Positions 13,728-51,520 of a stretch of DNA of 64,000 nt are shown one piece after another. The stretch is from Clostridiaceae bacterium OM02-2AC. Its GTDB lineage: Bacteria; Bacillota_I; Bacilli_A; Erysipelotrichales; Erysipelotrichaceae. Under the pieces are notes generated by a model. The model worked only from the letters and a program-made list of their open reading frames with translations. It was not told where the DNA came from and ran no database searches. The translations under genes and the position numbers were made by a program. The stretch spans positions 124,001 to 188,000 of the forward strand of contig QULU01000002.1 of the NCBI GenBank assembly GCA_003481775.1. Direction: 5' to 3'. Each line of letters starts with the position of its first letter. The stretch's first letter is position 1.

Positions 13728-13806
13728 GAATAAAAACACGGTCTGGTTGGTAGTCCAGACGCAATGAGAATTGTCAGTAACCTGCCTCCTTGGTTGTCCG
13801 TTTCCT
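13728..13806 (+). ncRNA. yjdF-motif riboswitch candidate
   Basis: The leader between the promoter and the DUF2992 (yjdF) start contains a stable hairpin GTCTGG/CCAGAC at 13741-13760, a closing helix (ACACGG with CCGTTT), and conserved-looking single-stranded purine-rich linkers. The yjdF RNA motif lies directly upstream of yjdF genes in Firmicutes and is reported to bind azaaromatic compounds and activate translation. Here the RNA ends just before the GGAGGAAG site of the gene, which suits control of translation. The assignment rests mainly on genomic context; I could not align it to a covariance model. Confidence 0.65.
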
Positions 13807-13832
13807 TATATAGTATATAAGGAGGAAGCATT

Positions 13833-18461: not shown

Positions 18462-18553
18462 TGTATAATGATTTTTTATATGAGAATTCAACAAAAAATA
18501 TAATGTAATTAAAAAGTATGTTAAAATTATCTGGATAGGAAGGATGTGGAAGA

Positions 18554-27923: not shown

Positions 27924-28062
27924 TAAAAAGAGAAAATCCCTGTGGGAAAGGCAGAGATTTTCTTGAAAGAGAAAGGGCAACAGCAATGAAAAAGCTATTT
28001 ATCAGGATGAGGAAACAAGAACTGCTGCCATCTATTAGCAAACAGACATATCTTTGTCTGTA
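27924..28062 (-). ncRNA. Putative small RNA, family copy C
   Basis: The minus-strand transcript of about 138 bases is bounded by a -10 box at 28073-28068 and a terminator at 27962-27924. The 5' hairpin is ACAGACA/TGTCTGT (28061-28042). A second helix pairs GGCAGCAGT (28029-28021) with GCTGTTGCC (27984-27976). The loop carries the C-rich motif TTTCCTCATCC (about 28015-28003). The terminator GAAAATC/GATTTTC is followed by T-rich sequence. Copies A (41340-41445) and B (42188-42341) have the same order of elements with different paired bases. No conserved coding frame is shared, so a regulatory RNA is favoured; C-rich loops in Gram-positive sRNAs often pair with Shine-Dalgarno sites. Confidence 0.6.
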
Positions 28063-28067
28063 CCTGT

Positions 28068-28121
28068 ATCTTACACCTTTTATGTGAATACCTCGTGAAG
28101 CTGTCATGAAGGATGGGTTAA
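28068..28121 (-). promoter_or_regulatory. Response-regulator-type promoter of sRNA copy C
   Basis: Read on the minus strand, four hexamers spaced exactly 11 bp, TTAACC (28121), TTCATG (28110), TTCACG (28099) and TTCACA (28088), end 9 bp before TAAGAT (28073-28068). This periodicity matches tandem binding by OmpR/PhoP-family response regulators, whose boxes read TT(A/C/T)A(C/T)A every 11 bp. Confidence 0.7.
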
Positions 28122-28237
28122 GCTTTATGTGAAATGATCAGAGGAACATGGGGGAGCTTTGTTTGTTTCTTGTGCAGAGTCCAAATTACGCAGCTATAGA
28201 ATTTATGTAAGGAAATGAAAATCCTTTCTTTTTTACA

Positions 28238-28266
28238 TTGACTTTCCTAATGTCAGCTTATAAAAT
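28238..28266 (+). promoter_or_regulatory. Promoter of the NSS transporter gene
   Basis: TTGACT (28238-28243), 17 bp, TAAAAT (28261-28266), about 27 bases upstream of the chosen start. Confidence 0.75.
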
Positions 28267-28292
28267 GTACAGGAAAGGTGTGTAGAAAGTAT

Positions 28293-29753
28293 ATGAAATC
28301 AAGAGAAAAACTATCATCCAGACTCGGATTTATTCTGATATCCGCTGGATGTGCAGTCGGTCTGGGGAATGTATGGCGTTTTCCATACATTACAGGCCAA
28401 TATGGAGGAGCAGCCTTTGTACTGCTCTATCTGGTTTTCCTGGTACTGCTGGGATTGCCTATTATGGTTATGGAATTCTCCGTCGGACGTGCTTCTCAGC
28501 GCTCCGCAGCGAAGTCCTTCGATTTATTGGAACCGGAAGGAACCAAGTGGCATCTTATAAAGTATGTCTGTATGGGGGGCAACTATCTGCTGATGATGTT
28601 TTATACAACAGTCGGAGGATGGATGATCAATTACTGTTTAAAAATGGCAACCGGAACCTTTGAGGGTCTACGGCCGGAACAGGTAGGACAGACATTTTCC
28701 GATATGCTTGCCAGTCCCGGACAAAACCTGTTCTGGATGATTGCGATTACTGTGATCGGCTTCTTTATCTGTAGCAGAGGACTGCAAAACGGCGTGGAAA
28801 AGATGTCAAAATACATGATGTCCTGTCTGTTTATCGTCATGCTGGTTCTTGTGATTCGTGCAGTTACCCTGCCAAACGCAGTAGAAGGCTTAAAATTCTA
28901 TCTGATTCCGGATTTTCAGAAAATGATGGCAAATGGCTTATGGGATGCTATTTTCGCAGCCATGGGGCAGGCATTTTTTACGCTGAGTCTTGGCATTGGT
29001 GCCCTTGCTATCTTTGGCAGCTATATTGGAAAAGATCGCTCTTTGCTGGGAGAAAGTCTGAATGTATGCATTCTGGATACCTGTGTGGCCTTTATCGCCG
29101 GACTGATTATATTTCCTTCCTGCTTCTCCTTCAACGTTGCAGCGGACAGTGGTCCTGGTCTGGTGTTTGTCACATTACCAAATGTTTTCAATGCGATGTC
29201 ACAAGGAAGATTATGGGGCTTTCTATTCTTTCTATTCATGTCCTTTGCGGCAATCACGACCATCATTGCAGTATTTGAAAATATTGTAGCCTTCGCAATG
29301 GACAGCGGCTGGTCCAGAAAAAAAGCTGTTCGTGTAAACTTTATCCTGATCCTGCTTTTATCACTCCCTTGTGTATTCGGCTTCAATCTTCTTTCCTTTA
29401 TAGAACCGCTTGGAGATGGAAGTACCATACAGGATCTGGAGGATTTCATTGTATCCAATAATATGCTGCCGCTGGGTTCTCTCATGTATCTGCTGTTTTG
29501 TACCTTCCGCTATGGTTGGGGATGGAAGAGCTTTACGGATGAGGCAAACAGTGGTACAGGCTTTAAATTTCCTGTATGGGCACGCTTTTATGTTTCATAC
29601 ATACTGCCTGTTGTAGTTATTTATATTTTCTTTCAGGGCTACATCGAGAAATTCGCAAAGCCATGGAATATATTGATTCCACTCGTTCTGCTGCTTCTCA
29701 TGATTTATGTCCCTTTGCAGGCATGGAGAAAGAAAAGAGCAAATAACAAATAA
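28293..29753 (+). CDS. Neurotransmitter:sodium symporter family transporter
   Basis: The 486-residue protein has about 11-12 membrane helices. The N-terminal SSRLGFILISAGCAVGLGNVWRFPYITGQYGGAAFVLLYL is the signature unwound TM1 region that binds Na+ and substrate in LeuT/TnaT-type NSS proteins (cited here only by its ends SSRLGF and FVLLYL, positions about 28308-28425). It imports an amino acid with sodium; which one cannot be told. I chose ATG 28293 over a GTG at 28278, which lies on the ribosome site AGGAAAGG. It is monocistronic and followed by a terminator. Confidence 0.9.
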   Translation: MKSREKLSSRLGFILISAGCAVGLGNVWRFPYITGQYGGAAFVLLYLVFLVLLGLPIMVMEFSVGRASQRSAAKSFDLLEPEGTKWHLIKYVCMGGNYLLMMFYTTVGGWMINYCLKMATGTFEGLRPEQVGQTFSDMLASPGQNLFWMIAITVIGFFICSRGLQNGVEKMSKYMMSCLFIVMLVLVIRAVTLPNAVEGLKFYLIPDFQKMMANGLWDAIFAAMGQAFFTLSLGIGALAIFGSYIGKDRSLLGESLNVCILDTCVAFIAGLIIFPSCFSFNVAADSGPGLVFVTLPNVFNAMSQGRLWGFLFFLFMSFAAITTIIAVFENIVAFAMDSGWSRKKAVRVNFILILLLSLPCVFGFNLLSFIEPLGDGSTIQDLEDFIVSNNMLPLGSLMYLLFCTFRYGWGWKSFTDEANSGTGFKFPVWARFYVSYILPVVVIYIFFQGYIEKFAKPWNILIPLVLLLLMIYVPLQAWRKKRANNK

Positions 29754-29800
29754 GACCACTCTCAGAAACAAAGCATAAGAAAAAACGATATATGAAATAG

Positions 29801-29833
29801 AGGCTCCTCATCAATCATACAGGAGCCTTTTTT
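29801..29833 (+). terminator. Rho-independent terminator of the NSS transporter
   Basis: AGGCTCCT pairs with AGGAGCC(T) across an 11-base loop and is followed by T6. Confidence 0.88.
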
Positions 29834-29877
29834 GGTTATCCGCAAGAGAACGGCATAATAAAAATATTATAATCGTA

Positions 29878-30624
29878 TCACCTTAACATATAGGAACGAA
29901 TCGCTTCACCTACAGAATCCACCAGATGATCAGCAGCTTCTCTTACCTTCTGTGGAGAAGACTTGAAGGTAAAGGATACATCCGCATCCTGCAGCATAGG
30001 AATATCGTTATAGGAATCTCCGATGCCAAAGCAGCTGTGCAGATTCATGAGCTTTTTCAGCTTTAAGAGCGCCTTTCCCTTAGAACAGCCGTAAGGTACC
30101 ACATCAACAAAATTCTGATTCTGAAATACCGCACAGGTATTGGGAAGCTGTTCTTCCATAGAGCGGCATAAGCGAGCCGCGGCCTCCTCATCTACCATGC
30201 GAAAGGACAATCCATGGATATTCTGATCCTTTATTTCCTCTATTTGTTGAATGACCGGAATATCTGTAAATGCTCTTGCTTTCTTATATGCATAGATATT
30301 ACCACCAGCCTGAATGGCGATACTTTCCACATCCTCCTCAAGCATACTCAGCTGCTTTGCGGTTTCCAGTGAAAGACAGCATTCAAACAGTATCCTTTGA
30401 TCTTTGTCCAGTATCATTGCCCCGCTGCTAACGATATAAAAATCAGGATGCAGGCGTTCGGAAAGAAATGCCGTAATGCCCCATAATGGCCGTCCTGTGC
30501 ACAGACCAAACAGACACCCCTGCTTCTGCAGCTGTTTGATTCCTGCTATATCCTCTTCCCGATAGCTTTCTACTGCATCGTGCAGATACAGTGTTCCATC
30601 GAAATCACTTGCCAATGCCTTCAT
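29878..30624 (-). CDS. HAD-superfamily Cof-type phosphatase
   Basis: The protein has 248 residues. Motif I is ASDFDGTLYLHD (nucleophile and acid Asp, about 4-15). Motif II is the SSG in YIVSSGAMI. Motif III/IV is KGKALLKL followed by GIGDSYNDIPML (about 205-216) with the Mg-binding Asp pair. A type IIB cap lies between motifs II and III. Members dephosphorylate sugar phosphates, flavin precursors or pyridoxal phosphate; the substrate is unknown here. The start is ATG 30624, ten bases after GAAGGG; the frame extends to 30678 without a better site. It is monocistronic. Confidence 0.9.
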   Translation of the reverse strand: MKALASDFDGTLYLHDAVESYREEDIAGIKQLQKQGCLFGLCTGRPLWGITAFLSERLHPDFYIVSSGAMILDKDQRILFECCLSLETAKQLSMLEEDVESIAIQAGGNIYAYKKARAFTDIPVIQQIEEIKDQNIHGLSFRMVDEEAAARLCRSMEEQLPNTCAVFQNQNFVDVVPYGCSKGKALLKLKKLMNLHSCFGIGDSYNDIPMLQDADVSFTFKSSPQKVREAADHLVDSVGEAIRSYMLR

Positions 30625-30678
30625 AATATCACAACCCTTCATCTGCTTCATTTTAAGAGGAAAGTGTTCAGCTGTCAA

Positions 30679-30970
30679 TAAAGAAAATACCTGTATGCTG
30701 TTAAATAGCTTTACAAAGGATATGAAGCAGGAAATAGAGTATTTTAAGGATCATAACAAATGAAAGCCAACAGACTTTGCATAATTAAGCAGCTAAAAAA
30801 ATGCTGGGAGTCAGCATTTTTTCAAATCCTATATGTTTACTCATGTATAGGCAGTTATCAAATTATTTATGCATAGCCTAAAGCAAATGATTAGGAATTC
30901 AAATTCTATTGATATACACAATAGCTTGAATTCCTATCTTTTTTAATATCACAAGGATACAGGTCCCTTT
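30679..30970. terminator. Intergenic region with two hairpin terminators
   Basis: No gene is seen in this 292-base stretch. At 30794-30822 AAATGCTG pairs with CAGCATTT, flanked by A6 and T6, making a bidirectional terminator. At 30892-30945 a TAGGAATTCAA/TTGAATTCCTA stem with an inner CTATTG/CAATAG stem is followed by a T-run on the plus strand. Together they isolate the HAD gene from the aldolase-PTS operon that ends at 30971. Confidence 0.7.
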
Positions 30971-31858
30971 CTATAATAGATGGTAATGCCGCAGCATCTC
31001 TTTTATTTTTTCATCATCCTGCGCACTGCATTCCAGCACCGGCTTCCTTGCCGGCCCGATTTCTGCGATTCCCGCAAGCTCTGCCGCACGCTTCATGACA
31101 ACCGGTACCGTTCCCAGCTTCAATACGCCGCGCAGTACATCGATGTCCTTCTGCAATTTCTCTGCTTTTTCTATTTCTCCATTTCGCAGTGCCTTGTCCA
31201 GCTCCACCAGCACCTCCGTTATTACATTGGAGGTTCCTGCCACTGCACCGCTTGCCCCTACTGCATAGCCATAGCTGATTTTGGAATCCGAACCGATCAG
31301 CAGATCGAAATCATCACGCTTCGCAATTTCTGCATACGCCTTCAGATTTTCTTCCTTTCCACTGCTGTCCTTGATACCGCGGATGTTCTTTACCTCCGCC
31401 AGACGTCCCACGACCTCTGCGCTCAAATTGCAGCCTGTCGCCTTTGGAATGTTGTAAAGAATGATCGGAATGCTGACACTTTCCGCAACCGCTGTGAAAT
31501 GCTGTACCAGCTCTTCCGCAGTCGGTGTCAGAAAATACGGTGTGATGACACTCAGTGCATCTGCTCCCAGCTCCTCCATCTTCTTTGACAGACGGATGGT
31601 TTCCTTTGTGCTGCACGCCCCTGTCCCTACATATACCGGAACACGGTGGTCTACCATTTGGATTACCTTTTCGGCAAATTCTATTTTTTCCGCTTCCTCG
31701 ATCACATGAAACTCCCCGTTGCTTCCGAGAATGAAGATTCCCTTTACCCCCTTTGCGATTAGGTGGTCGATCAGCTGCTGTGTCGCCTCATAGTTGATGC
31801 TTTGTTCCGCATCACGATGAAACGGTGTTACGATTGGTGTGATGATACCGTCAAACAT
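30971..31858 (-). CDS. DapA/NanA-superfamily class I aldolase
   Basis: The 295-residue (beta/alpha)8 Schiff-base aldolase has the phosphate/carboxylate loop GSNGEF (canonical GTTGE), the catalytic Tyr in ILYNIP (about 135), and the Schiff-base Lys in GIKDSSG (about 163). Members include dihydrodipicolinate synthase, N-acetylneuraminate lyase and 2-keto-3-deoxy-gluconate-type aldolases. Its place as the last gene of a PTS operon that also encodes a hydroxyacid dehydrogenase and a sugar isomerase points to catabolism of a 2-keto-3-deoxy sugar acid rather than lysine synthesis. RBS AAGGAAAGAGG. The substrate is inferred. Confidence 0.85.
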   Translation of the reverse strand: MFDGIITPIVTPFHRDAEQSINYEATQQLIDHLIAKGVKGIFILGSNGEFHVIEEAEKIEFAEKVIQMVDHRVPVYVGTGACSTKETIRLSKKMEELGADALSVITPYFLTPTAEELVQHFTAVAESVSIPIILYNIPKATGCNLSAEVVGRLAEVKNIRGIKDSSGKEENLKAYAEIAKRDDFDLLIGSDSKISYGYAVGASGAVAGTSNVITEVLVELDKALRNGEIEKAEKLQKDIDVLRGVLKLGTVPVVMKRAAELAGIAEIGPARKPVLECSAQDDEKIKEMLRHYHLL

Positions 31859-31877
31859 ATAATTTGTCCTCTTTCCT

Positions 31878-32345
31878 TTATTTTTTAAAGATTGAGTAAT
31901 CCTTATTATCGAAGGGTGCCGTCTGAAAGAACATACGGATTCCCTGACTCTGGATATACCGAATCTTTTCTATGTCTTCTTCACTGAAATAATCCGAGAG
32001 GCTTTTGATCATCATGCGGCTTGCAGGATATGGCATCTGAATCTCCTTTGTACGGAAACCTGCCTTCACAGCATCACAGGCAACACTTAAATTCGGAAAA
32101 ATAACCATTGCTTTGATACTGCGGCCTTCATTGATATATTCGAGGAATTGTTCTATAGAGAAAATTTTAACCTTCATGGTTTTGGGAAGACAAAGCTGCA
32201 TTACATCAGCAATGAATGGATCATTTACATAATCCGGATCTACAATCAGTACATTATCTGCATCGATAAACTGATTCCAGTTCAAAGCAACTGTCGCATG
32301 CAGTAATCGTTTGTCTATCCGCGCAAGTTTGATTTTTGTACTCAT
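31878..32345 (-). CDS. PTS mannose-family IIB component (second copy)
   Basis: The 155-residue IIB protein of the mannose/sorbose PTS family has the phosphorylated His at residue 16 in ARIDKRLLHATVALNW, where most members have RLIHGQV. The rest follows the family: VDPDYVNDPF, MKVKIFSIEQFLEYI, and a C-terminal YFSEED region. Its start overlaps the regulator stop (ATGA), so it is coupled to it. The operon also encodes another IIB at 37241. The altered HATV motif suggests a regulatory role towards the PucR-like regulator or a second substrate, which is inference. Confidence 0.88.
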   Translation of the reverse strand: MSTKIKLARIDKRLLHATVALNWNQFIDADNVLIVDPDYVNDPFIADVMQLCLPKTMKVKIFSIEQFLEYINEGRSIKAMVIFPNLSVACDAVKAGFRTKEIQMPYPASRMMIKSLSDYFSEEDIEKIRYIQSQGIRMFFQTAPFDNKDYSIFKK

Positions 32346-33427
32346 GCTTCATCACCTACTTGAACTCGTTTCTGATATTCTCTCAATGCATAGGATATCA
32401 GCATTAAGAGAACCTTTCCCTGAAAACTTCCCCGGACATCTATCTGAAAAACTTCCTCATATTTCTTAAGCTTATATATCAATGTATTTTTATGCAGAAA
32501 CAGATCATCTGCGGCCTGTGTCAGATTGAAATCATTCACAAACAGCTTATCACAGATATCCACCATTTCCTCTATATCGATACCTTTTCCACATTCCCTG
32601 TAATAATCAAACACATCCCTGACATCATCCACCGCTACCTTTGACAGAAAATAGTCATAGAGGTAATCGGAGAAAAATACCGGAACATCCTTCTCGTATG
32701 TCACATTGTTCTTCAGCCACAGACAATTCTGATAGCTGATTGCATACTGCCGCAGCTTTTTCTGAATGGAACCGACAAAATAATAACAGTCCGTCATCTC
32801 CCATTCCCGCAGGCTGCGGATATAATCGCGTATAAATGGTTTAAAATCAGCCGTATTATGATATTCCTGCGGCAAATCCTTAAAAATCAGCAGGCACTTG
32901 CTATTCAGCAGAGAATAGATGATTTCCTTACTATCCGGCTTCATTTTCAAACGCATGACATCCTTTGTATTGAACCCTTCATTATGAACCACATAGATCG
33001 CCACCCTTGGTTTATTTTTATCTATTTCCAATTCATCCAGAAGGCTTAACACATGATTCATATCAAAGTTTTCCGTATTTAATATATATTTCACCAGCTC
33101 GTCATCCTTTGTGACCTTCTGGTTCAAGGTTGTCTGATTGATTTCATACATGAGCCGTACCGTAAGAGATTCATTCAAAAGCTTACTGATCATCGGCAGA
33201 TTTTCATCATTACCGCTCACCCATAAGAATCCGAAATCCTGACCCTTTACACGTACTTCAAAAAATGCATTATGCTCATCCGGCCGATTTACATCAACCT
33301 GACGTCCGATTTCCGCTTTATTACTGCATAATGTCACTGTCATTTTATCATTCACAAGCCCAATCGTATAACGGTTGTTTTCCTGAACAACATTTATAAA
33401 TTCCTCAAAAACTTCACCTATCAGCAT
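32342..33427 (-). CDS. CdaR/PucR-like regulator with C-terminal HTH
   Basis: The protein has 361 residues. The N-terminal 60 residues (TIGLVNDKMTVTLCSNKAEIGR) resemble the sugar-diacid recognition domain of CdaR. A middle domain lacks clear motifs. A C-terminal HTH_30 of PucR type is NLTQAADDLFLHKNTLIYKLKKYEE (quoted ends NLTQAADDLF and YKLKKYEE, about 305-330). These regulators usually activate carbohydrate-acid catabolism in response to the substrate. It sits inside the PTS operon between IIA and the second IIB, not at its head. Control of the operon is likely but not shown. Confidence 0.82.
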   Translation of the reverse strand: MLIGEVFEEFINVVQENNRYTIGLVNDKMTVTLCSNKAEIGRQVDVNRPDEHNAFFEVRVKGQDFGFLWVSGNDENLPMISKLLNESLTVRLMYEINQTTLNQKVTKDDELVKYILNTENFDMNHVLSLLDELEIDKNKPRVAIYVVHNEGFNTKDVMRLKMKPDSKEIIYSLLNSKCLLIFKDLPQEYHNTADFKPFIRDYIRSLREWEMTDCYYFVGSIQKKLRQYAISYQNCLWLKNNVTYEKDVPVFFSDYLYDYFLSKVAVDDVRDVFDYYRECGKGIDIEEMVDICDKLFVNDFNLTQAADDLFLHKNTLIYKLKKYEEVFQIDVRGSFQGKVLLMLISYALREYQKRVQVGDEA

Positions 33428-33580
33428 ATGATCTCTCCTTTCGCAAGAGTTGAACTCTCATGAAGTCTGACATCTTCCCTGTATGCCAATAGTACCACAG
33501 AATAATATATCCCCTTCTGCATGATAGTGCTTTCATGGAAATTATAATTCATATGACAGGGTTTGTCCAGACAGCTTTAT

Positions 33581-33994
33581 TCAGGATTCCAGCTGTGTAT
33601 TCGTATGTACGCAGCTGGTTTGTAAAGTTTCCATCGTTTCCTTCAGAAGTGCTTCCTCCTCCAGATCTGTTTCCTCCATATTGGAGAGCTTCAGATACAG
33701 ATCAATCAGCATCGGAAGATTCAGACCGGTAAGCACCGGATAGTGATACTTTCTGCTCATGACAGTAAAAACATTGCAAGGGGTTCCGCCATACAGGTCT
33801 ACCAGAACGATGGTAAAGCCTTCCTTTGTACGCATGGTTTCATCCACAAGCTTCATGTAATCCTCAAAGGAATATTCCGGAAGCAGTGAACAGCAATCTA
33901 CATTCTCCAGCGCCCCTGCAATCATTCTCGCAGAATTCACAAGCTCCTCACCGAATTTTCCATGTGTTCCTATAACAATATTAAATTTTTCCAT
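33581..33994 (-). CDS. PTS mannose-family IIA component
   Basis: The 137-residue single-domain IIA has the phosphoryl-accepting His at residue 11 in VIGTHGKFGEEL. The family motif VLVDLYGGTPCNVFTV (about 65-80) follows, which builds the dimer and active site, and then VLTGLNLPML. It takes phosphate from HPr and passes it to IIB. It lies apart from the IIB-IIC-IID genes, after the SIS isomerase, with RBS AGGAGGAGC. About 150 bases separate it from the regulator gene downstream. Confidence 0.9.
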   Translation of the reverse strand: MEKFNIVIGTHGKFGEELVNSARMIAGALENVDCCSLLPEYSFEDYMKLVDETMRTKEGFTIVLVDLYGGTPCNVFTVMSRKYHYPVLTGLNLPMLIDLYLKLSNMEETDLEEEALLKETMETLQTSCVHTNTQLES

Positions 33995-34006
33995 AGCTCC
34001 TCCTGT

Positions 34007-34609
34007 TTATTTCTGCAGCTCTTTGATACTTTTACCAAGACTTCCACCCGGATGCCATTTCACATACTGATTCAAATCCAGCTGCTTTGCTTCCTGCAAT
34101 ACGACACTCAAGCATTGCAGAATCAGTATTTCCGACAGGATGGATGCTCGCGGCGGCTTATTCAGCTCGTCCCCTTCTTCATCCACATGCGCTACCAGAC
34201 AGACCTCTGACTGCTTTGCCAGCGTCGATTGCGGATTTCCCGTACAGCTGATGATGTGTGCTCCGTTTGCTATCAGTGTCTGTACCGTTGCCTCCAGCTC
34301 CATCGTTTCTCCACTATTGGATATGGCAATCACCACATCTCCTTTTTTTACCTGTCCGCTGGATCCATGTACGGCCTCTGTACCATGCAGCTCATAGGCA
34401 CTCGTTCCTGTGGAGGACAACAACGATGCAATATAGCCTGCCACATGCCCCGGCTTCCCGATTCCCGTGACATGGATTCGTCCTCCCTGCTTTTCACTTT
34501 CCATTATGATATGTGCTGCACGCTCGATGCTTTCCATATCCATTTCTTCTATATTTTTCCCTAATTCCGATGCAATATTGCTCAGATATTCCTTTACACA
34601 TTCTATCAT
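34007..34609 (-). CDS. SIS-domain sugar-phosphate isomerase (KpsF/GutQ-like, no CBS domains)
   Basis: The 200-residue protein is a single SIS domain: GRIHVTGIGKPGHVAGYIASLLSS carries the first Ser-rich phosphate loop (ends GRIHVTGIGK and ASLLSS), ELHGTEAVHGSSG follows, and AISNSGETMELEATV is the second. It resembles the SIS half of arabinose-5-phosphate isomerase but ends before CBS domains. It may instead isomerise or deglycate an amino-sugar or keto-sugar phosphate produced by the PTS. ATG 34609 has AGGTGA at the right distance; a GTG at 34618 is in frame but ill placed. It lies tight behind the dehydrogenase. Confidence 0.85.
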   Translation of the reverse strand: MIECVKEYLSNIASELGKNIEEMDMESIERAAHIIMESEKQGGRIHVTGIGKPGHVAGYIASLLSSTGTSAYELHGTEAVHGSSGQVKKGDVVIAISNSGETMELEATVQTLIANGAHIISCTGNPQSTLAKQSEVCLVAHVDEEGDELNKPPRASILSEILILQCLSVVLQEAKQLDLNQYVKWHPGGSLGKSIKELQK

Positions 34610-34618
34610 ACGTTTCAC

Positions 34619-35551
34619 CTAGTTTCCGATCAGCTGTTCCAATATGATGTCCGTAGACATTGCACAGGTTCGCTGTTCACTTTCCTTGCTTCTTGCGGCT
34701 GTGTGCGGCGTCAACAGGAAATTATCCAGTGTGAGCAGCTTATCATCCTCCCTTGGCGGTTCACTGCTGTACACATCGAAGCATGCACTTCGTATTTCCT
34801 TATTCTTCAATGCTTCATATAAAGCTTCTTCATCCACGATACCCCCACGCGCTGCATTCAGCAGGCAGGCATCCTTCTTCATTTTTTTGAATTCCTCTGT
34901 GGAAATCATATGTCGTGTAGAGTCCAGAAGTGGTACGTGAAGAGAGATATAATCACATTCTGCTAGGATATCCTCCAGTGTGGAAATCTGTGCATGGTAC
35001 TGCTTTGCACTTTCCTCTGCGATTGCAAAGGCATCATAGGCATATACCTCCATACCGCAGCCGTAAGCATATTCTGCAAGATACTTTCCGATCATACCAA
35101 AGCCGATGATTCCCAGCTTCTTCCCATAAATTTCTCTGCCGGTAGGCTTATTCCAGCCATGCTGCTTCACATCCCGTACACTGGTATACAGATTTTTAGC
35201 TTCCATCAGCATCATGGAAAGGACATGCTCGGCGACTGAGCGGGAATTGCTTCCCACACAGCGTCCGACATGGATATGATGCTCCTTTGCATAATCCAGA
35301 TCGATATTATCCGTTCCAACACCGAATTTACACACTGCCTTCAGCTTCGGACAGCCCTCCATCATTTCCTTATCCATCGTATCCACACCGACGATAATAG
35401 CATCGGCATCCTTCGCCAGTGCTTTAAACTCCTCCTGTGTATATGCCTTACCTGTGGCATTGTAATGTACATCCAGACCCTTGGATTTCATCCGCTCCAC
35501 CTGATCCAGACCATAATTCGCAAACCCTCGCGGGGTTATCAGTACCTTCAT
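34619..35551 (-). CDS. Phosphoglycerate dehydrogenase-like D-2-hydroxyacid dehydrogenase
   Basis: The protein has 310 residues. The Rossmann motif is LGIIGFGMIGKYLAEYA (about 147-163). The catalytic residues are Arg in LNAARGGIVDE (about 233-243), Glu in SSEPPRED and His in LTPHTAARS. It lacks the ACT domain of biosynthetic SerA, so it more likely acts on a sugar-acid intermediate of this operon. It is separated from the IID gene by an 80-base gap with a strong hairpin, so the downstream half of the operon may be expressed at a different level. Confidence 0.88.
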   Translation of the reverse strand: MKVLITPRGFANYGLDQVERMKSKGLDVHYNATGKAYTQEEFKALAKDADAIIVGVDTMDKEMMEGCPKLKAVCKFGVGTDNIDLDYAKEHHIHVGRCVGSNSRSVAEHVLSMMLMEAKNLYTSVRDVKQHGWNKPTGREIYGKKLGIIGFGMIGKYLAEYAYGCGMEVYAYDAFAIAEESAKQYHAQISTLEDILAECDYISLHVPLLDSTRHMISTEEFKKMKKDACLLNAARGGIVDEEALYEALKNKEIRSACFDVYSSEPPREDDKLLTLDNFLLTPHTAARSKESEQRTCAMSTDIILEQLIGN

Positions 35552-35596
35552 AAAATCTCCTTTCTTTTCCTATCCTCCATCTGTCTGTAAAGAAAA

Positions 35597-35622
35597 CAAA
35601 TCCATGCTCTTCCATGGATTTG
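35597..35622 (-). terminator. Intercistronic hairpin (attenuator or partial terminator)
   Basis: A perfect 10-bp inverted repeat, CAAATCCATG and CATGGATTTG with a 6-base loop, lies between the IID and dehydrogenase genes and is followed on the minus strand by TTTTCTTT. It can act as a rho-independent terminator inside the operon or as an mRNA-stabilising 3' end for the IIB-IIC-IID message. Confidence 0.75.
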
Positions 35623-35630
35623 TTCACATC

Positions 35631-36482
35631 TTATATAATATGGAAGAAGGTTAATACGATTGCGATAATCATTGTATAAATCATCAGACGAATATACTTT
35701 GGTCCTCGCTTTGTAATATACAGATACATTCCCATAACGACGATGAATGGCAGCATATTCGGCAGGATACCGTCGATGATTTCCTGCAGCTTCACAGTTG
35801 ACGTATCACTGGCGAATTCCACAATGGTCTGCACCTTTATATAAGAGGCAGACAGACATCCGATCATGAACAGACCAACGATGCTTGCGATGTCAATAAC
35901 CTTTTTGATTGCTCCGGAGTGCAGAATTTCCAATACAGAATTTTTACCCAGAGAGTACCCCTTGTTGAAGAGGAACCAGGACCAGCCAAAGCTCCATGCA
36001 ATATAGATCAAGCCAGGAATAAAGGCGGCGATGATTGAGCCCTCCAGCGCCATCGGGACAAAGATTGCCAACGGAATTGTCGCAACGATTCCCTGATCCA
36101 CACTGTCACCGATACCGGCAAGCGGTCCCATCAGACCAAGCTTTAAGGATTGAATAACCTCCGGTGAAATATCGTCGTGACCAAGCGCACGCTGCTCCTC
36201 CAAAGAAATCGTAATTCCATGAATGATACTTCCCCAGTCACAGTTTGTATTGAACATGGATGTATGACGGCGCATTGCTGCCTGCAGCTCTTCCGGGTCA
36301 TCCTTGTACAGCTTACGCAAAACCTTGTTCATCGAATATCCGAAGGCAAGTGCCTGCATACGGTCAAAGCTTACCGGAACCTCTACAGCAAGCGTCCATT
36401 TCCACCATGCCTTTAACAGATCCTTTTTTGTTACGATTGTTTTCTTTTCTTCAGCGGCTACACTGTTTACTGCTTCACTCAT
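35631..36482 (-). CDS. PTS mannose-family IID component
   Basis: The 283-residue protein opens with a soluble helical region and contains the family stretch MNKVLRKLYKDDPEELQAAMRRH (ends MNKVLRKL and AAMRRH). HTSMFNTNCDWGSIIHGI and LMGPLAGIGDSVDQGIV follow. C-terminal membrane helices lie at about 140-165, 200-220, 235-255 and 265-283. With IIC it forms the translocation channel. Its start overlaps the IIC stop by four bases (ATGA). Confidence 0.93.
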   Translation of the reverse strand: MSEAVNSVAAEEKKTIVTKKDLLKAWWKWTLAVEVPVSFDRMQALAFGYSMNKVLRKLYKDDPEELQAAMRRHTSMFNTNCDWGSIIHGITISLEEQRALGHDDISPEVIQSLKLGLMGPLAGIGDSVDQGIVATIPLAIFVPMALEGSIIAAFIPGLIYIAWSFGWSWFLFNKGYSLGKNSVLEILHSGAIKKVIDIASIVGLFMIGCLSASYIKVQTIVEFASDTSTVKLQEIIDGILPNMLPFIVVMGMYLYITKRGPKYIRLMIYTMIIAIVLTFFHII

Positions 36483-37231
36483 GCAACTTCCTCCTCATCG
36501 TTCTGTTTGAATAGGGATACGATCAGTGCAAGACATAATGCAATCACTGCTCCTGTCAGCATGGAGAAGCCCATGACAGAGTACAGGAAGAATCCCAGTA
36601 CGAAGAATGGCAGATATTTCTTTTTTCCCATAACAACCAGTGTCAGTGCGAACCCTAACCCCGGCAGCATGTTTCCTGCGTTGGTAAGTCCATTCATCGC
36701 CCATTCCGGTATCACGTTGATAAATGCCTGTACAACGCTGGAACCGAATAACGTCGCAATGAATACCGGTGTAAAATACAATACACCATTGGTAAGCCAT
36801 GGAAGCACAAAGGAGAAGATGGACAGCTTGTCATACTGCTTGTCCTCTACAAATTTATCTGCCTTCGTATTATAGAAGGAGTTGATGGTACGACGTACAT
36901 TATTGATCAAAACGCCCAAAACTCCGAATGGAACGGCCAGAGCCACAGCCGCAGCCGGATCCAGATTGTTTGCGATAGCGGCAGGAATTGCGATACAGGT
37001 TGCCAGTCCCTGATCACTTGGAATATTTCCACCGGCTTCGATACCTCCCATATACATCAGCTGGATGGTGGCACCATACAGCAGACCGGTCTGTACATCC
37101 CCATATACAAGACCGATAAATACGCCCAGTACGACTGGCTTACGGAATGCAAACGAGATAAAATAGCTCGCACGTCCCATGGAAAGCCAGTACAGTATAC
37201 CGACTAAGATTGCTTGAATTACCATATACAT
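36479..37231 (-). CDS. PTS mannose-family IIC component
   Basis: The 250-residue membrane protein has about seven hydrophobic segments and family motifs LVYGDVQTGLLYGATIQLMYMG (ends LVYGDVQTG and QLMYMG) and GGNIPSDQGLATCIAIP. It binds and transports the sugar while IIB phosphorylates it. RBS GGAGGACAT. It is flanked by IIB (9-base gap) and IID (4-base overlap), the standard order. Confidence 0.93.
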   Translation of the reverse strand: MYMVIQAILVGILYWLSMGRASYFISFAFRKPVVLGVFIGLVYGDVQTGLLYGATIQLMYMGGIEAGGNIPSDQGLATCIAIPAAIANNLDPAAAVALAVPFGVLGVLINNVRRTINSFYNTKADKFVEDKQYDKLSIFSFVLPWLTNGVLYFTPVFIATLFGSSVVQAFINVIPEWAMNGLTNAGNMLPGLGFALTLVVMGKKKYLPFFVLGFFLYSVMGFSMLTGAVIALCLALIVSLFKQNDEEEVA

Positions 37232-37240
37232 GTCCTCCTG

Positions 37241-37723
37241 TTATAATTTAGCGACAGCTTTTTGAAGTGTTTCGGAAGGATAATCCGGAGTTGTCTGGAA
37301 ATAAATTTCGATCCCCATCTTTTCCAGTTCAAGCAGAGTATCTGCATCTGCTCTGTCCAGTGTGATTGCGTTGTTGACAGCCTTACGTCCCGGTCCCCCG
37401 CCAAGACCTCCAATCTGTACCTTTTCCAGCTTCAGTCCAGCCTGTACTGCGGCATTCAGTTCTGCCACACCCTTAAACAGCACCATGACGCGGTTCTTAT
37501 CAAAGGCTCCCTCCTGCTGGCGTTTTACCGCATCCTCTACATTTACGATTGTGATTTTTACACCCTTTGGAGCTGCCATTTTAAATACTTCCTGCATGAA
37601 AGCATCCTTGCTCAGGGCAGTGTCGATTGTTACGATTTCATTGATCTGACACTGTGTCAGCCATCTGGTAATAACCTGACCGTGAATCAATCTGAAATCT
37701 ACTCTTGTCAATTCAATACTCAT
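37241..37723 (-). CDS. PTS mannose-family IIB component (first gene of operon)
   Basis: The 160-residue protein has the canonical phosphorylation-site motif TRVDFRLIHGQVITRW with His14, then IDTALSKDAFMQEVFKMAAP, and GGLGGGPGRKAVNNAITL. It receives phosphate from the IIA encoded 3.7 kb downstream and phosphorylates the sugar bound by IIC/IID. RBS AAGGAGGAATT. It is the promoter-proximal gene of the long operon and is preceded by a cre-like site. Confidence 0.93.
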   Translation of the reverse strand: MSIELTRVDFRLIHGQVITRWLTQCQINEIVTIDTALSKDAFMQEVFKMAAPKGVKITIVNVEDAVKRQQEGAFDKNRVMVLFKGVAELNAAVQAGLKLEKVQIGGLGGGPGRKAVNNAITLDRADADTLLELEKMGIEIYFQTTPDYPSETLQKAVAKL

Positions 37724-37746
37724 CTTGAATTCCTCCTTACACCTAC

Positions 37747-37768
37747 ATTATATTGAAATCGCTTTCAA
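37747..37768 (-). promoter_or_regulatory. PTS operon -10 box with adjacent cre-like site
   Basis: The minus-strand TATAAT (37752-37747) lies directly next to TTGAAAGCGATTTCAA (37768-37753), a near-perfect palindromic catabolite-responsive element. It would overlap the core promoter, so CcpA-type binding should repress the operon when better sugars are present. Confidence 0.75.
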
Positions 37769-38017
37769 GTCGCTATGTTCAAACAAACTAAAAAGCTTAT
37801 GCCGTTTTTGGTCAAACGCACAAAGTTGAAAAAATGCATCCGGAAACCGGAGCATACTTGTTTTCTATATATTATATGTGTTTTGATTGACCTTCTAAAA
37901 GTCCTTTATTTATAGGCTTTTTAAGCATAAGCCAGGCAGACGAGCAGGCTCTTTCCAACTGCAATCTCATTTGTTTAAGCGCACATATTTCACCTCTAAT
38001 TTTGTTCACTCATCCAA
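37769..38017. other. Divergent intergenic region between PTS operon and aldolase
   Basis: No gene is present. A hairpin TCCGGAAACCGGA sits at about 37839-37851. An AT-rich tract holds TATAAT-like boxes on both strands near 37865-37880. The two cre-like sites at either end frame the region, which probably also binds the operon's own regulator. Confidence 0.5.
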
Positions 38018-38046
38018 TTGTAAGCGTTTCTAAAACAACGTAAGAT
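38018..38046 (+). promoter_or_regulatory. Aldolase promoter with cre-like site on the -35 box
   Basis: TTGTAA (38018-38023), 17 bp, TAAGAT (38041-38046). The -35 is the first part of TTGTAAGCGTTTCTAA (38018-38033), a good match to the cre consensus, so CcpA-type repression is expected here as well. Confidence 0.75.
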
Positions 38047-38067
38047 ATAGGCAAGGAGGATGTCATT

Positions 38068-38709
38068 ATGAATATGAAAAAAATGAATGTCACAAACCGT
38101 ATGTATGAGGCAGGAGCACTTGCTATCGTTCGTGCGGAAACACTGGATCGAGCATGTGAAATAGCGGAAGGCTGCATGAAGGGCGGTGTACCTGTCATGG
38201 AAATGAGCTATACATTAAATAACGCTGGAGATATCATACAGGGGCTTTCTGAAAAATATGGTGATGCGCTATGCGTAGGTGCCGGAACGGTGCTGGATGC
38301 AGAAACAGCAAGACACGCAATCCTGCATGGAGCCGATTTTATTATCGCACCCAATTATAATGAAGAAGTCGCAAAAATGTGCAATCGTTATCAGATACCT
38401 TATGCACCCGGTTGTACAACGATTACCGAGTGTGTTGATGCATTGAGCAGCGGAGCGGCATTCGTTAAGGCATTTCCTATTTCTGATTTCTATGGGCCAA
38501 AGCTGGTAAAGGTTTTTAAAACACCAATTCCAGATATGCCGATTCTGGCAAGCGGTGGAATCAATCTTGATAATCTGACAACATGGCTGGAAAACGGTGT
38601 TGATGTCTGTGGCTTCGGTGGTCTTCTGACAAAAGGAAGCAGTGAGGATATTGCCGCAAATGCTACCAAAATTCATGAAATCATTACCGGCTTTCGTTCC
38701 AGTAAATAA
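38068..38709 (+). CDS. eda: KDPG/KHG-type aldolase
   Basis: The 213-residue class I aldolase has a VPVMEMSYT strand (the catalytic Glu is normally in EvTlR), GAGTVLDAETA, the Schiff-base Lys in AFVKAFPISDFYGP (canonical KfFPA), and a phosphate-binding LASGGINLDNL. It cleaves a 2-keto-3-deoxy-6-phospho sugar acid to pyruvate and a triose phosphate. The EMSYT and KAFP variants suggest a substrate other than plain KDPG. RBS AAGGAGGAT. It is divergent from the PTS operon and shares catabolite control with it. Confidence 0.88.
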   Translation: MNMKKMNVTNRMYEAGALAIVRAETLDRACEIAEGCMKGGVPVMEMSYTLNNAGDIIQGLSEKYGDALCVGAGTVLDAETARHAILHGADFIIAPNYNEEVAKMCNRYQIPYAPGCTTITECVDALSSGAAFVKAFPISDFYGPKLVKVFKTPIPDMPILASGGINLDNLTTWLENGVDVCGFGGLLTKGSSEDIAANATKIHEIITGFRSSK

Positions 38710-38749
38710 GGGCAGTTAGAAAGCTTATCTGATATTTCTGTATTCTTAC

Positions 38750-38792
38750 AAAAAAACTGCATGGCGTATCTTAACGGTACACCATGCTTTTC
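38750..38792. terminator. Bidirectional terminator between eda and the phospho-glucosidase side
   Basis: GCATGG pairs with CCATGC around an inner weak stem. A7 on the left gives a T-run on the minus strand, and TTTTC lies on the right. Confidence 0.8.
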
Positions 38793-38797
38793 ATTCT

Positions 38798-38974
38798 TTA
38801 TTTAAATGCTTCCAAATTTGTTAAATAATTCAAATATCCATTACTTCCCATTTGTTTTTCCCAAAAATCCATACTTTCATGTATTCTGATGAGCAGCCGA
38901 AATGCCATCGTGACCATTCCTTCACAAATCTTATTTCTATCCATAGCTGCGATATCTGCAGCTTCAAGAATCAT
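38798..38974 (-). pseudogene. Remnant or small gene of 58 codons
   Basis: The minus-strand frame MILEAADIAAMDRNKICEG... runs from ATG 38974 to TAA 38798 and has normal codon usage. It ends six bases before a terminator. There is no good ribosome site, and a stop lies just upstream in the same frame, so it reads like the C-terminal stub of a longer protein. I do not recognise the family. It lies behind the GH1 gene on the same strand. Confidence 0.4.
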
Positions 38975-39028
38975 ACAGCTTTGGATGCCTTACAAGTTTT
39001 TACCATCCGTTTACTTACGCTGTGCACC

Positions 39029-41241
<2,213 letters not shown>

Positions 41242-41261
41242 AGCACACCTCCAATACGTAT

Positions 41262-41289
41262 ATTATAACGCAAAATTCGTTGACTGCAA
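41262..41289 (-). promoter_or_regulatory. Promoter of gntR-bglA
   Basis: On the minus strand TTGCAG (41289-41284), 16 bp, TATAAT (41267-41262), 20 bases upstream of the start. A near-palindrome AATATACGTATT directly after the -10 (about 41265-41254) could be the autoregulatory operator. Confidence 0.6.
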
Positions 41290-41339
41290 CATAATTATAT
41301 ACTTTTATTATAAAACATATATATTTTTAAAACACTTCT

Positions 41340-41445
41340 AAAAAAACCTCTGTGACGGGACAGAGGCTTTGTGGCAATGACGATGGATAACATATAGATG
41401 AATAGGAAATTGTCATCACCCTTCTTTCAGACAGAGCTTGTCTGT
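41340..41445 (-). ncRNA. Putative small RNA, family copy A
   Basis: The minus-strand transcript of about 106 bases has a 5' hairpin CAGACA/TGTCTG (41444-41428) and a second helix GGTGATGAC (41419-41411) with GTCATTGCC (41382-41374). Its loop has TTTCCTATTCATC. The terminator CCTCTG/CAGAGG (41366-41347) is followed by T7. The element order is the same as in copies B and C. The paired bases of the second helix differ from the other copies but still pair along the whole length, which is evidence for selection on structure. An AAGGGTGATG start-like site overlaps the helix, so a very short peptide cannot be excluded. Confidence 0.6.
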
Positions 41446-41451
41446 ATGTAC

Positions 41452-41494
41452 AGCATACACCCGCCGTGTGAACAGCATGTGAAGTATGTTTGAA
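41452..41494 (-). promoter_or_regulatory. Response-regulator-type promoter of sRNA copy A
   Basis: On the minus strand TTCAAA (41494), TTCACA (41483) and TTCACA (41472) are spaced exactly 11 bp. Nine bp later TATGCT (41457-41452) follows. The geometry is identical to that of copies B and C and of the sulfotransferase promoter. Confidence 0.72.
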
Positions 41495-41517
41495 TATCCA
41501 TACAATATCTGTATAAT
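41490..41517 (+). promoter_or_regulatory. Promoter of the GNAT gene, divergent and overlapping
   Basis: TTGAAT (41490-41495), 16 bp, TATAAT (41512-41517). Its -35 overlaps the most upstream hexamer of the sRNA A promoter, so a regulator bound there could affect both directions. Confidence 0.6.
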
Positions 41518-41609
41518 GATGTATGGAACAGAAAAGGAGGACTTCTATAATCCTTTATAATCTGGATTTCATTTACAGTACACGCAAAGAAAGGATGGGG
41601 GAGGCAACT

Positions 41610-42056
41610 ATGAATATAAACTACAAAAGAATGGAGAGTCAGCATGTAGATGCAGTGGTAAAACTATACATAGACTATTATAATACCTATGAGGGAGGCT
41701 GCTGGACTTATGATAAAGCATATAAAAGACTTCATCAGCTCATGACGATCGAGGATGCACTGTGCTTTATACAGATGGTCGATCATGTTATCAGTGGATT
41801 CGTCATGGGATATTTTAAAGAATTTGATGATTTGACCGGTTATTATCTGGAAGAAATCGTGGTCGTCAAGCAATTTCAAGGGGCGCATCTTGGTACGCAT
41901 TTTCTAAATAAACTGGAGAAAACCGTAAAAGCGAACGGTGCTTCCTTCATTGAGCTACTCAGTGTAAACGATGAGATGCATGCGCATTTCTATACGAAAA
42001 GCGGATACAAAAATGCAGAGAATATGATATTCAAATGCAAGCATTTTGCGGATTAG
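41610..42056 (+). CDS. GNAT family N-acetyltransferase
   Basis: The 148-residue protein has the GNAT fold order: an N-terminal helix, YLEEIVVVKQFQGAHLGTHFLNKLE containing the acetyl-CoA loop QFQGAHLG (motif A, Q/RxxGxG/A), and the C-terminal ELLSVNDEMHAHFYTKSGYK strand-helix. It acetylates an unknown amine or protein. The start at 41610 has GGGGGAGG; the frame upstream to 41523 covers the promoter. Two copies of the small-RNA element flank this gene. Confidence 0.85.
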   Translation: MNINYKRMESQHVDAVVKLYIDYYNTYEGGCWTYDKAYKRLHQLMTIEDALCFIQMVDHVISGFVMGYFKEFDDLTGYYLEEIVVVKQFQGAHLGTHFLNKLEKTVKANGASFIELLSVNDEMHAHFYTKSGYKNAENMIFKCKHFAD

Positions 42057-42187
42057 CAGCAGCATTGTAGGGAGGGGATGTCCCTATTCCTCTCACAAGC
42101 AGCAGCCCAGCAAAAGCAGCCTTTATTCTGTATACTGATCATAGCCTTCAACTTTCACTTGAATGGTCGCCTATATGTATGGGAAGC

Positions 42188-42341
42188 AAAAAAGAACCTC
42201 TGCGAGGGACAGAGGTTCAGCATGAAGGCAGGTAATGGAAATGAAAAAATATTGTAAACATGATAGCTGTTTTGTTTTTATAGGGATGGGGAAACATTCC
42301 ATTACCTTTATTAAGATTTCACAAGCATTGCTTTGCTTGTG
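42188..42341 (-). ncRNA. Putative small RNA, family copy B
   Basis: The minus-strand transcript of about 154 bases has a 5' hairpin CACAAGC/GCTTGTG (42341-42320). Its second helix is ten perfect pairs, GGTAATGGAA (42306-42297) with TTCCATTACC (42240-42231). The enclosed loop has TTTCCCCATCCCTATAA (about 42294-42278) and is longer than in A and C. The terminator GAACCTCTG/CAGAGGTTC (42218-42194) is followed by T6. It is the best-formed of the three copies. Confidence 0.65.
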
Positions 42342-42346
42342 TCTAT

Positions 42347-42389
42347 ATCATACATCGCCTATGTGAACGCTGTGTGAACGTTATATGAA
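42347..42389 (-). promoter_or_regulatory. Response-regulator-type promoter of sRNA copy B
   Basis: On the minus strand TTCATA (42389), TTCACA (42378) and TTCACA (42367) occur at exact 11-bp steps, then 9 bp and TATGAT (42352-42347). Confidence 0.75.
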
Positions 42390-42512
42390 AAGGGAAAGAA
42401 TTAAGCAATTCATCCATATCTGCATTCTGTATCCGCATAAACTGGGGAAATGAATTGTCTGAACAATTCCTATCATGGTAAAATAGATAGGAAAACGGAA
42501 GGAGTGTGGATC

Positions 42513-43037
42513 ATGAACAAGCTGTGGGGACATTTGAAAACAATAACTGCGCACAAGCTTGCGGTCACAAAGCTTTGTTTTCGTTGCGGTTTGTATAAAC
42601 AGGGACTTCTGCATGACCTCTCCAAATACTCTCCTGTTGAATTTTGTGCAGGTGTGAGGTATTACCAGGGAAATCGCAGCCCCATTGATTATGAAAAGGA
42701 AGTAAAAGGCTATTCCTTAGGCTGGCTGCATCATAAAGGAAGAAACAAGCATCATTGGGAATACTGGTTGGATAATGCTGTCGGGGGAATCAAGCCTGTG
42801 AAAATGCCGCTTCATTATCTTGTGGAAATGTACTGCGATCGTACTGCCGCTTCCCGCATTTATATGAAGGAAAATTATCATGACGGCAGTGCTTATGAAT
42901 ACTTCATGAACGGGTATGATAATGTTATTATGCATGAAGAGACAAAGGCAATGCTGAAGATGATTCTGGAATATCAGCGGGATCATGGAACGGATGCTAC
43001 AATTAACTTTATACGAAAAGAGATACTGCAGAACTGA
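42513..43037 (+). CDS. DUF5662 family protein
   Basis: The 174-residue protein is rich in histidine, with conserved family segments GLYKQGLLHDLSKYSPVEF, LGWLHHKGRNKHHWEYW and MYCDRTAASRIYM. The HD-like and HHxxxxxHH patterns suggest a metal-binding helical fold related to HD phosphohydrolases, but no activity is known. ATG 42513 is chosen behind GGAAGGAG. It is preceded by the small-RNA B promoter region, which reads the other way. Confidence 0.85.
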   Translation: MNKLWGHLKTITAHKLAVTKLCFRCGLYKQGLLHDLSKYSPVEFCAGVRYYQGNRSPIDYEKEVKGYSLGWLHHKGRNKHHWEYWLDNAVGGIKPVKMPLHYLVEMYCDRTAASRIYMKENYHDGSAYEYFMNGYDNVIMHEETKAMLKMILEYQRDHGTDATINFIRKEILQN

Positions 43038-49049: not shown

Positions 49050-49934
49050 CTATTCTTCCTCAATTCCACCCAGCATTTCCAGCAGACGGTTCAGATCCTC
49101 ATTGCCCTCATAACGTATGGTGATTTGCTTTTCATCAATGCGCACCTTTGTTTGAAAACGGCTCTGCAAGCGATCCTGCACCTTATCCAGATTGATATCC
49201 CGCTGCTTCTTCTCCGGTGCACTTTTTGGTTCATTCATATTTTTTACAAGCGTTTCAACCGCACGCACACTCAGATGCAGCTGGATGGCTTTTTTTGCCA
49301 CATCCTCAATCTGTGTCGCATCCTTTAACCCAAGCAGTGCACGCACATGCCCCATGCTCAGCTGCTTATCAATAACATACTGCTGGACAGCCTTCGGAAG
49401 CTTTAACAGACGCAGCATATTCGCAACATGCTCTCTTGATTTCCCGATTCGCTTCGCCAGCTCTTCCTGTGTATAGTCAAGCTTCTTAATCAGCTTTTCA
49501 TAGCCCTGTGCTTCCTCAATGGCATTCAAATCCTCACGCTGAATATTTTCCAGCAGTGCGATTTCCATCATTTGCTGATCGTCAAATTCCATTAGAATAG
49601 CAGGAATGGTTTTCAATCCTGCAACCTTACTGGCCCGCAATCGACGTTCTCCTGCAATCAGCTCATAGCCCTTAACGGCTTTCTTAACCAGAATCGGTGT
49701 GAATACACCATGCAGACGGATGGAATCAGCAAGCTCCTGAATCTTGTCATCATCAAAGTTTTTCCGCGGCTGATACGGATTCGGCTTTACATCCTTCACC
49801 GCAACCTCAAACTTGGAATCCTCGTGAACCTCTGTCTTTCCCTGCTGAATATCCTCTAATACATTATTGACGTCTTCACCAAAGATGGCAGACAAGCCCT
49901 TCCCAAGTCTTGCACTATTCTCTTTTTTCGGCAT
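49050..49934 (-). CDS. parB: Chromosome-partitioning protein ParB (Spo0J)
   Basis: The 294-residue protein has a short N-terminal ParA-stimulating segment (KKENSARLGKGLSAIFG), a CTP-binding ParB/Srx domain with GERRLRA (about 96-102), LLENIQREDLNAIEEAQGY, a parS-binding HTH (QEELAKRIGKSREHVANMLRLL) and a C-terminal dimerisation domain. LSMGHVRALLGL is typical of true ParB rather than Noc. It spreads from parS as a CTP-dependent clamp to organise the origin. RBS GGGAGGTGG. It is the last gene of the block. Confidence 0.93.
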   Translation of the reverse strand: MPKKENSARLGKGLSAIFGEDVNNVLEDIQQGKTEVHEDSKFEVAVKDVKPNPYQPRKNFDDDKIQELADSIRLHGVFTPILVKKAVKGYELIAGERRLRASKVAGLKTIPAILMEFDDQQMMEIALLENIQREDLNAIEEAQGYEKLIKKLDYTQEELAKRIGKSREHVANMLRLLKLPKAVQQYVIDKQLSMGHVRALLGLKDATQIEDVAKKAIQLHLSVRAVETLVKNMNEPKSAPEKKQRDINLDKVQDRLQSRFQTKVRIDEKQITIRYEGNEDLNRLLEMLGGIEEE

Positions 49935-49946
49935 TCATCCACCTCC

Positions 49947-50729: not shown

Positions 50730-50744
50730 AAGATCATTTCCTTT

Positions 50745-51509: not shown

Positions 51510-51520
51510 TCTATTCCTCC

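Follow-up and report, generated by a model that had tools for sequence, protein, structure and literature searches.

Three intergenic units on the minus strand of a 64-kb stretch from Clostridiaceae bacterium OM02-2AC (contig QULU01000002.1, positions 124,001 to 188,000; the whole stretch is referred to here as the window) are built from the same parts, and the locus raises the question of what these units produce, what switches them on and what their products act upon. They are designated U1 (28110-27925), U2 (41494-41340) and U3 (42389-42188). A sequence-only reading had described them as three copies with a common order of parts, and on rechecking the coordinates of every element the parts are indeed present at these places. 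With moderate confidence, U1-U3 are considered here to be paralogous trans-acting small RNAs (sRNAs), activated by a regulator of the OmpR family, probably under envelope stress, and pairing with ribosome-binding sites.

Promoter arrays and predicted RNAs

Each unit begins with three TTCACA-like hexamers at exact 11-bp steps. The array of U1 (28083-28110), a putative regulator-binding region, is made up of TTCATG (28110-28105), TTCACG (28099-28094) and TTCACA (28088-28083). The array of U2 (41467-41494) reads TTCAAA, TTCACA and TTCACA, and that of U3 (42362-42389) TTCATA, TTCACA and TTCACA. In all the three units the last hexamer is followed, after a gap of 9 bp, by a -10 box, as had been proposed earlier; the sequence of the box varies, being TAAGAT in U1 (28068-28073), TATGCT in U2 (41452-41457) and TATGAT in U3 (42347-42352).

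The pattern TTCACA-N5-TTCACA-N9-TATGAT with up to three mismatches has four matches in the 64 kb against 0.12 expected, and none of 100 shuffles contains four. Besides the three units, the matches include a fourth array on the plus strand (60011-60053; TTCACA, TTCAGA and TTCACA, N9, TACAAT), a promoter of like type situated directly before a gene for an arylsulfotransferase (60070-61659, plus strand; ASST, PF05935 and PF17425 in Pfam). Judging from the promoter, this gene is probably a member of one regulon with U1-U3. A hand score for three TTCACA hexamers and a -10 box (maximum 24) reaches at least 18 at the same four places only, with U3 scoring 23, U2 22, the fourth array 21 and U1 20; in a closely related scheme no site scoring at least 19 was found in 103 other loci (1.0 Mb). 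A promoter scan called no sigma-70 type -35/-10 pair at the promoters of U1, U2 and U3, which fits dependence on an activator.

The predicted sRNA of U1 (27925-28062, minus strand) is of about 135 nt and comprises a 5' hairpin (28061-28042), a second helix (28029-28021 with 27984-27976) and a terminator stem (27963-27952 with 27942-27931) followed by a T-run. For U2 an RNA of about 105 nt is predicted (41340-41445, minus strand), with hairpin 41444-41428, second helix 41420-41412/41381-41373 and a terminator core 41366-41360/41353-41347, again before a T-run. The RNA predicted for U3 (42188-42341, minus strand) has about 150 nt, with the hairpin at 42341-42320, the second helix at 42306-42297/42240-42231 and the terminator at 42218-42194, also with a T-run. 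The fold of each RNA is more stable than those of its dinucleotide shuffles (z of -3.4, -4.0 and -6.8 for U1, U2 and U3, with none of 300 shuffles as low in each case), in part because of the terminators. Among 127,480 start positions scanned on both strands, the combination of 5' hairpin, 9-bp helix and terminator claimed for the units was found at U1-U3 and at the complement of U3 only, under thresholds chosen after the units had been seen. A strict terminator scan reports the terminator of U3 only; for U1 and U2 the terminators were obtained by folding and with a looser scan. The first helix is nearly alike in U1 and U2, and in U3 it differs on both sides with the pairing kept.

The arms of helix 2 fall in equal alignment columns in all the three units when aligned by MAFFT with no structure supplied. 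The bases were said to change while pairing is kept, and this holds in 27 of 27 cells: two of the nine pairs are invariant, two are changed on one side and five on both sides. On four of five measures helix 2 is equalled by 4 of 500 shuffles, and on the number of pair types by 103 of 500. Controls slid along the alignment are 30-82% paired, and the one at -3 retains four pairs changed on both sides. Cognate arms pair at -14.5, -12.0 and -13.7 kcal/mol (U1, U2 and U3) as against -1.4 to -8.6 for swapped arms, the own partner being best each time. Since there are just three sequences, the pairing-preserving change in helix 2 is suggestive and does not amount to proof.

The promoter type in other genomes

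The comparison set was a sample of 398 genomes from the phylum to which one Lachnospiraceae genome belongs. This phylum is not close to the window: the best MetK identity is 57% near full length and at most 63% on the fragments of one genome (61 genomes), and for MurA, where 20 of 299 genomes exceeded a strict threshold, the best identity is 58%. The pattern TTCACA-N5-TTCACA-N9-TANRNT occurs at 33 sites in 30 of the 398 genomes, and no site is found when the pattern is read backwards. The three-hexamer form with at most one mismatch occurs at 35 sites in 29 genomes against one in the control, some of the sites having no clear -10 box.

In the current analysis 31 of the 33 two-hexamer sites, in 30 loci, were read (one locus, L104, has no open reading frame (ORF) of 60 amino acids starting within 350 nt), and the longest ORF starting within 350 nt of a site was scanned against Pfam for 30 of 30 proteins. 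Secreted-type DUF2680 proteins account for 10, a count that includes L125 at 24.0 bits against a cut-off of 25. They are followed by trypsin/HtrA-type proteases (4), OmpR-family response regulators (3), HlyD (2) and SLH (2) proteins, single cases of AcrB-type, PMT_2, M23, sigma factor, FAD oxidoreductase and SHOCT proteins, and three proteins with no family. Ten larger regions were chosen by hand, favouring regulator, efflux and protease genes. Six of them contain an OmpR-family regulator gene, which is accompanied in five by a histidine kinase gene; in the sixth, L143, the regulator gene follows an HtrA-type gene, and the closest solved relatives of its product are named BaeR, RegX3 and MtrA.

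Tandem hexamers at the spacing of a helical turn ahead of the -10 box are a feature of OmpR-family regulon promoters. Hexamers one helical turn apart and at a fixed distance from the -10 box are seen at the four sites of the window and at the 33 and 35 sites elsewhere, which points to the hexamers as binding sites of an OmpR-family regulator of envelope-stress type. Envelope or secretion stress is suggested as the likely trigger, because elsewhere this promoter type precedes genes for HtrA-type proteases, efflux, small secreted-type proteins and two-component systems. The transfer from the sampled phylum to the organism of the window is by inference, and repeats of this sort can also be bound by other members of the OmpR family.

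Terminator-like hairpins within 260 nt were identified at two of 41 distinct promoter sites screened (two-hexamer loci, three-hexamer loci and nine loci of viral contigs): at L130, where the hairpin lies inside a coding region, and at L188, where it stands alone. L188 is a phage-like IMG/VR contig of 45.8 kb. On its minus strand, at 3140-3260, three hexamers and a TATAAT box precede a hairpin whose loop is UUCCCU, and a terminator closes the unit, which corresponds to a predicted RNA of about 65 nt. This unit has promoter type and loop character in common with U1-U3 and not sequence. Scans of three proteins encoded nearby gave, for two of them, matches to families of phage regulators and DnaD-like helicase loaders; no relatives of the L188 RNA were found among phage records. 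Searches of viral contigs gave 0 stretches with the first patterns and 84 stretches with a loop pattern.

Known sRNAs and the loops

Within the window, a sequence model built from U1-U3 recovers these units only, at 84-107 bits (a match by construction), the next match being at 4.1 bits. No named family had been recognised earlier, and the comparison with Rfam agrees, no family reaching its gathering score at U1-U3. The best weak match is that of U2 to the cyanobacterial PsrR1 (RF02701), which is strongest over the terminator. PsrR1 was rejected as an identity for the units, as its 29.1 bits in U2 are below the gathering score of 42 and it does not figure in the weak matches of the other two units. 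LhrC is likewise not among the weak matches of U1-U3 in Rfam 15, which presumably includes that family. Among the top literature matches listed, drawn from open-licence papers, none concerns csRNA-like families or such sRNAs in Clostridium innocuum or Erysipelotrichaceae.

The best reading, by analogy, is that U1-U3 would work like the csRNAs controlled by CiaR and like LhrC, while falling outside the tested definition of either family. In PMC3091779 csRNAs are described as RNAs of 51-202 nt with an intrinsic terminator, preceded by an NTTAAG-N5-TTTAAG repeat and a -10 box ten bases on, and CiaR is described as controlling htrA as well. They resemble U1-U3 in their several intergenic copies, the N5-spaced direct repeat with a -10 box at fixed distance, and the short RNA with stem-loops, terminator and a pyrimidine-rich region, which in csRNAs faces ribosome-binding sites (PMC3091779). 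U1-U3, intergenic and of about 105-150 nt, lie within the length range and carry predicted terminators, which in U1 and U2 are seen only on folding and with the loose scan. The repeat differs, being TTCACA with N9 and usually three hexamers in place of TTTAAG and ten bases, and the long-range helix 2 and the lack of an Rfam gathering-score match also set U1-U3 apart from csRNAs. Candidate motifs for an unpaired region complementary to Shine-Dalgarno and AUG, as in csRNAs, are present in U1 and U3, with no edge over shuffled loops in the window save in one of seven queries. CTTTTTCAT is common to U1 and to a conserved stretch of four csRNAs (PMC6755750); the window contains 7 occurrences of this 9-mer. 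Phages of pneumococci use csRNA genes as integration sites (PMC6755750), and a prophage alters csRNA3 and thereby inhibits transformation (PMC9764711).

LhrC1-5 of Listeria are multicopy sRNAs under the envelope-stress two-component system LisRK (PMC4132741), and the CU-rich loop of LhrC binds Shine-Dalgarno regions (PMC5880928). Several copies and a CU-rich loop are shared with U1-U3; envelope-stress control and Shine-Dalgarno binding are described for LhrC and would extend to U1-U3 by analogy. The terms TTCACA and direct repeat are absent from PMC4132741.

The loop motif TTTCCYYATYC, attributed earlier to all the three units, is exact in U1 (TTTCCTCATCC, 28005-28015, minus strand) and U3 (TTTCCCCATCC, 42284-42294, minus strand), both candidate pairing sites, a fit equalled by 7 of 2000 shuffles, but is poor in U2 (TTTCCTATTCATC). 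In pairwise tests the sharing between U1 and U2 was equalled by 663 of 2000 shuffles and that between U2 and U3 by 1257 of 2000. TGTTTCCYCATCC and TTTTTCATT are common to the loops of U1 and U3, which also carry UUUUUCAUU, the complement of AAUGAAAAA; the U2 loop has TTTCCTATTCATC and TTATCCATC. The loop consensus is UUUCCYCAUCC, and its complement GGATGNGGAAR is over-represented in the window (45 against 9.2), an excess that may be due to codon content. An exact match to the loop complement, with the core GGATGTGGAAG, is located at 18542-18552 on the plus strand, immediately ahead of position 18554, where a GGDEF gene has its start codon; this gene may be considered a candidate target.

The proposal that the C-rich loop pairs with Shine-Dalgarno sequences is plausible through the analogy with csRNAs and LhrC, but at the starts in the window it showed no gain over shuffled loops. 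Pairing was computed at 44 translation starts picked by hand in the window, with seven loop queries overall. The 5' side of the loop gave means of -11.8, -11.3 and -9.5 kcal/mol for U1, U2 and U3, compared with -10.4, -8.2 and -8.1 at internal coding positions. The 3' side of the U1 loop, with 0 of 200 shuffles as good, is the sole exception among the queries; shuffles did as well in 38 of 200 for the 3' side of U2, 84 of 200 for that of U3 and 58 of 200 for the whole U1 loop.

Several results weigh against the interpretation of U1-U3 as stress-activated sRNAs of this kind. With the 5' side, 26, 17 and 17 of 100 shuffled loops (U1, U2 and U3) paired as well at the starts, and U2 has only a poor form of the loop motif. 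When the terminator is removed only the fold of U3 is striking, shuffles folding as low in 1 of 500 cases for U3, 15 of 500 for U1 and 40 of 500 for U2. The copies are three in number and none comes from another genome; in the 398 genomes no clear homologue was found with a sequence model (best 21.6 bits, E of 5.8e-4 per genome), and 55 genomes had a match at E of 0.1 or less under strict filters where about 40 are expected by chance. An sRNA-gene-like site was seen at only one of the 41 promoter sites elsewhere, and several of the sites are near-identical copies (L112/L113, L122-L125 and L126/L127), so that the gene counts are not independent.

Alternatives, gene surroundings and proposed role

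The failure of start-region pairing to exceed that of shuffled loops would also suit a role for the units as sponges or decoys by which a protein or some other RNA is titrated, and several copies with a common loop are equally in keeping with a sponge. This is an unlikely explanation, as the closest functional analogues, csRNAs and LhrC, act on mRNAs. By eye the loops are CU-rich and without the GGA motifs that are typical of CsrA-type sponges.

The hexamers could be PhoP/PhoB boxes, and the RNAs phosphate-starvation sRNAs. PHO boxes are direct repeats at 11 bp with GTTCAC or TTxACA cores near the -10 box, an arrangement similar to that seen here. For the three regulators encoded next to sites the best NCBIfam models are MtrA and PhoB, the PhoB models being best or second-best in each, but all matches are below cut-offs, with 180-221 bits against a curated PhoB cut-off of 296. 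Phosphate genes are not encountered among the 30 proteins scanned beside sites, and the gene behind the fourth array of the window encodes an arylsulfotransferase, which makes phosphate control improbable.

The gene surroundings bear on the idea that the units are cis-acting leaders or attenuators. U1 is flanked by a divergent gene for an SNF-family symporter and, about 140 nt past its end and on the like strand, by an ORF of 65 amino acids; U2 is flanked by a divergent GNAT acetyltransferase gene and, about 100 nt past its end, by a GntR-family gene on the like strand. These two downstream genes could be served by leaders, but a predicted terminator closes each unit, inspection by eye suggests separate promoter boxes for the downstream genes (not called by the promoter scan), and U3 is convergent with the gene downstream of it, that of the acetyltransferase. 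Leaders or attenuators are accordingly improbable too. The sequence-only reading had named a peptide gene or a known family as outcomes that would overturn it: no known family matched, and peptide-coding RNAs are highly improbable, for the same-strand ORFs of at least 20 amino acids starting inside the units (42 in U1; 30 and 32 in U2; 22, 26 and 43 in U3) are short and unlike one another, in length as in sequence, from unit to unit, whereas the changes in helix 2 preserve its pairing.

Relatives of the GNAT gene at 41523-42056, which separates U2 from U3, were found at 12 loci, all in Lachnospiraceae/Butyrivibrio, in a scan of genome contigs, and the gene was perhaps acquired laterally. A plus-strand -35/-10-like pair (41490-41517) facing this gene overlaps the U2 array, and the regulator of that array might act on the acetyltransferase gene as well. 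The DUF5662 protein encoded at 42450-43037 has 31 related loci in viral contigs; no relatives of the GntR and arylsulfotransferase proteins were found there. Phage records gave no match to positions 26000-50000 of the window, and plasmid records none to 41300-42450 or 40000-64000.

Farther away, Rfam identifies an azaaromatic (yjdF) riboswitch at 13720-13818 on the plus strand (82.8 bits) and group II intron domains at 5932-6224 on the minus strand; with window positions 1-25000 as query, 76 bp of the intron match two Tetragenococcus plasmids at 88% identity. Two ParB-family genes lie next to a GidB methyltransferase gene (49050-52231), an arrangement usual near the chromosome origin.

That U1-U3 are paralogous regulatory RNAs with a common promoter, as had been suggested, is well supported by the promoter statistics, the structure, the pairing-preserving change and the lack of an Rfam match. 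In the mechanism proposed, envelope or secretion stress, a trigger suggested by promoter use in the phylum of the Lachnospiraceae genome and not in the organism of the window, would lead a phosphorylated OmpR-family response regulator to bind the array of TTCACA hexamers, which places one on each helical turn. The bound regulator would stand in for the missing -35 contact, and three paralogous, trans-acting sRNAs of about 105-150 nt would each be transcribed independently. The predicted 5' hairpin may protect the RNA, the predicted helix 2, variable yet always paired, may present the pyrimidine-rich loop, and the predicted terminator would end the RNA. The loop would then pair with a Shine-Dalgarno sequence or with the region of a start codon, and during stress a selected set of proteins, perhaps exported ones, would be translated less.

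A wider and rather doubtful proposal is that envelope-stress two-component systems in several lineages of Firmicutes have independently gained multicopy sRNAs directed against Shine-Dalgarno sequences and placed behind promoters with tandem hexamers, U1-U3 being one such case, and that temperate phages carry miniatures, of which L188 would be an example, that draw on the stress regulator of the host and alter host translation. If the present reading is true, an RNA family absent from Rfam would be added, one of this kind outside streptococci and listeriae. In Firmicutes that have been little studied, the promoter rule of three TTCACA hexamers at 11 bp, N9 and a -10 box could guide a search for sRNAs under stress control and for the regulator behind them. 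The reading would also point to a repeated adoption of multicopy sRNAs that block start sites by stress two-component systems, and the instance of L188 suggests that phages may exploit a like stress circuit.

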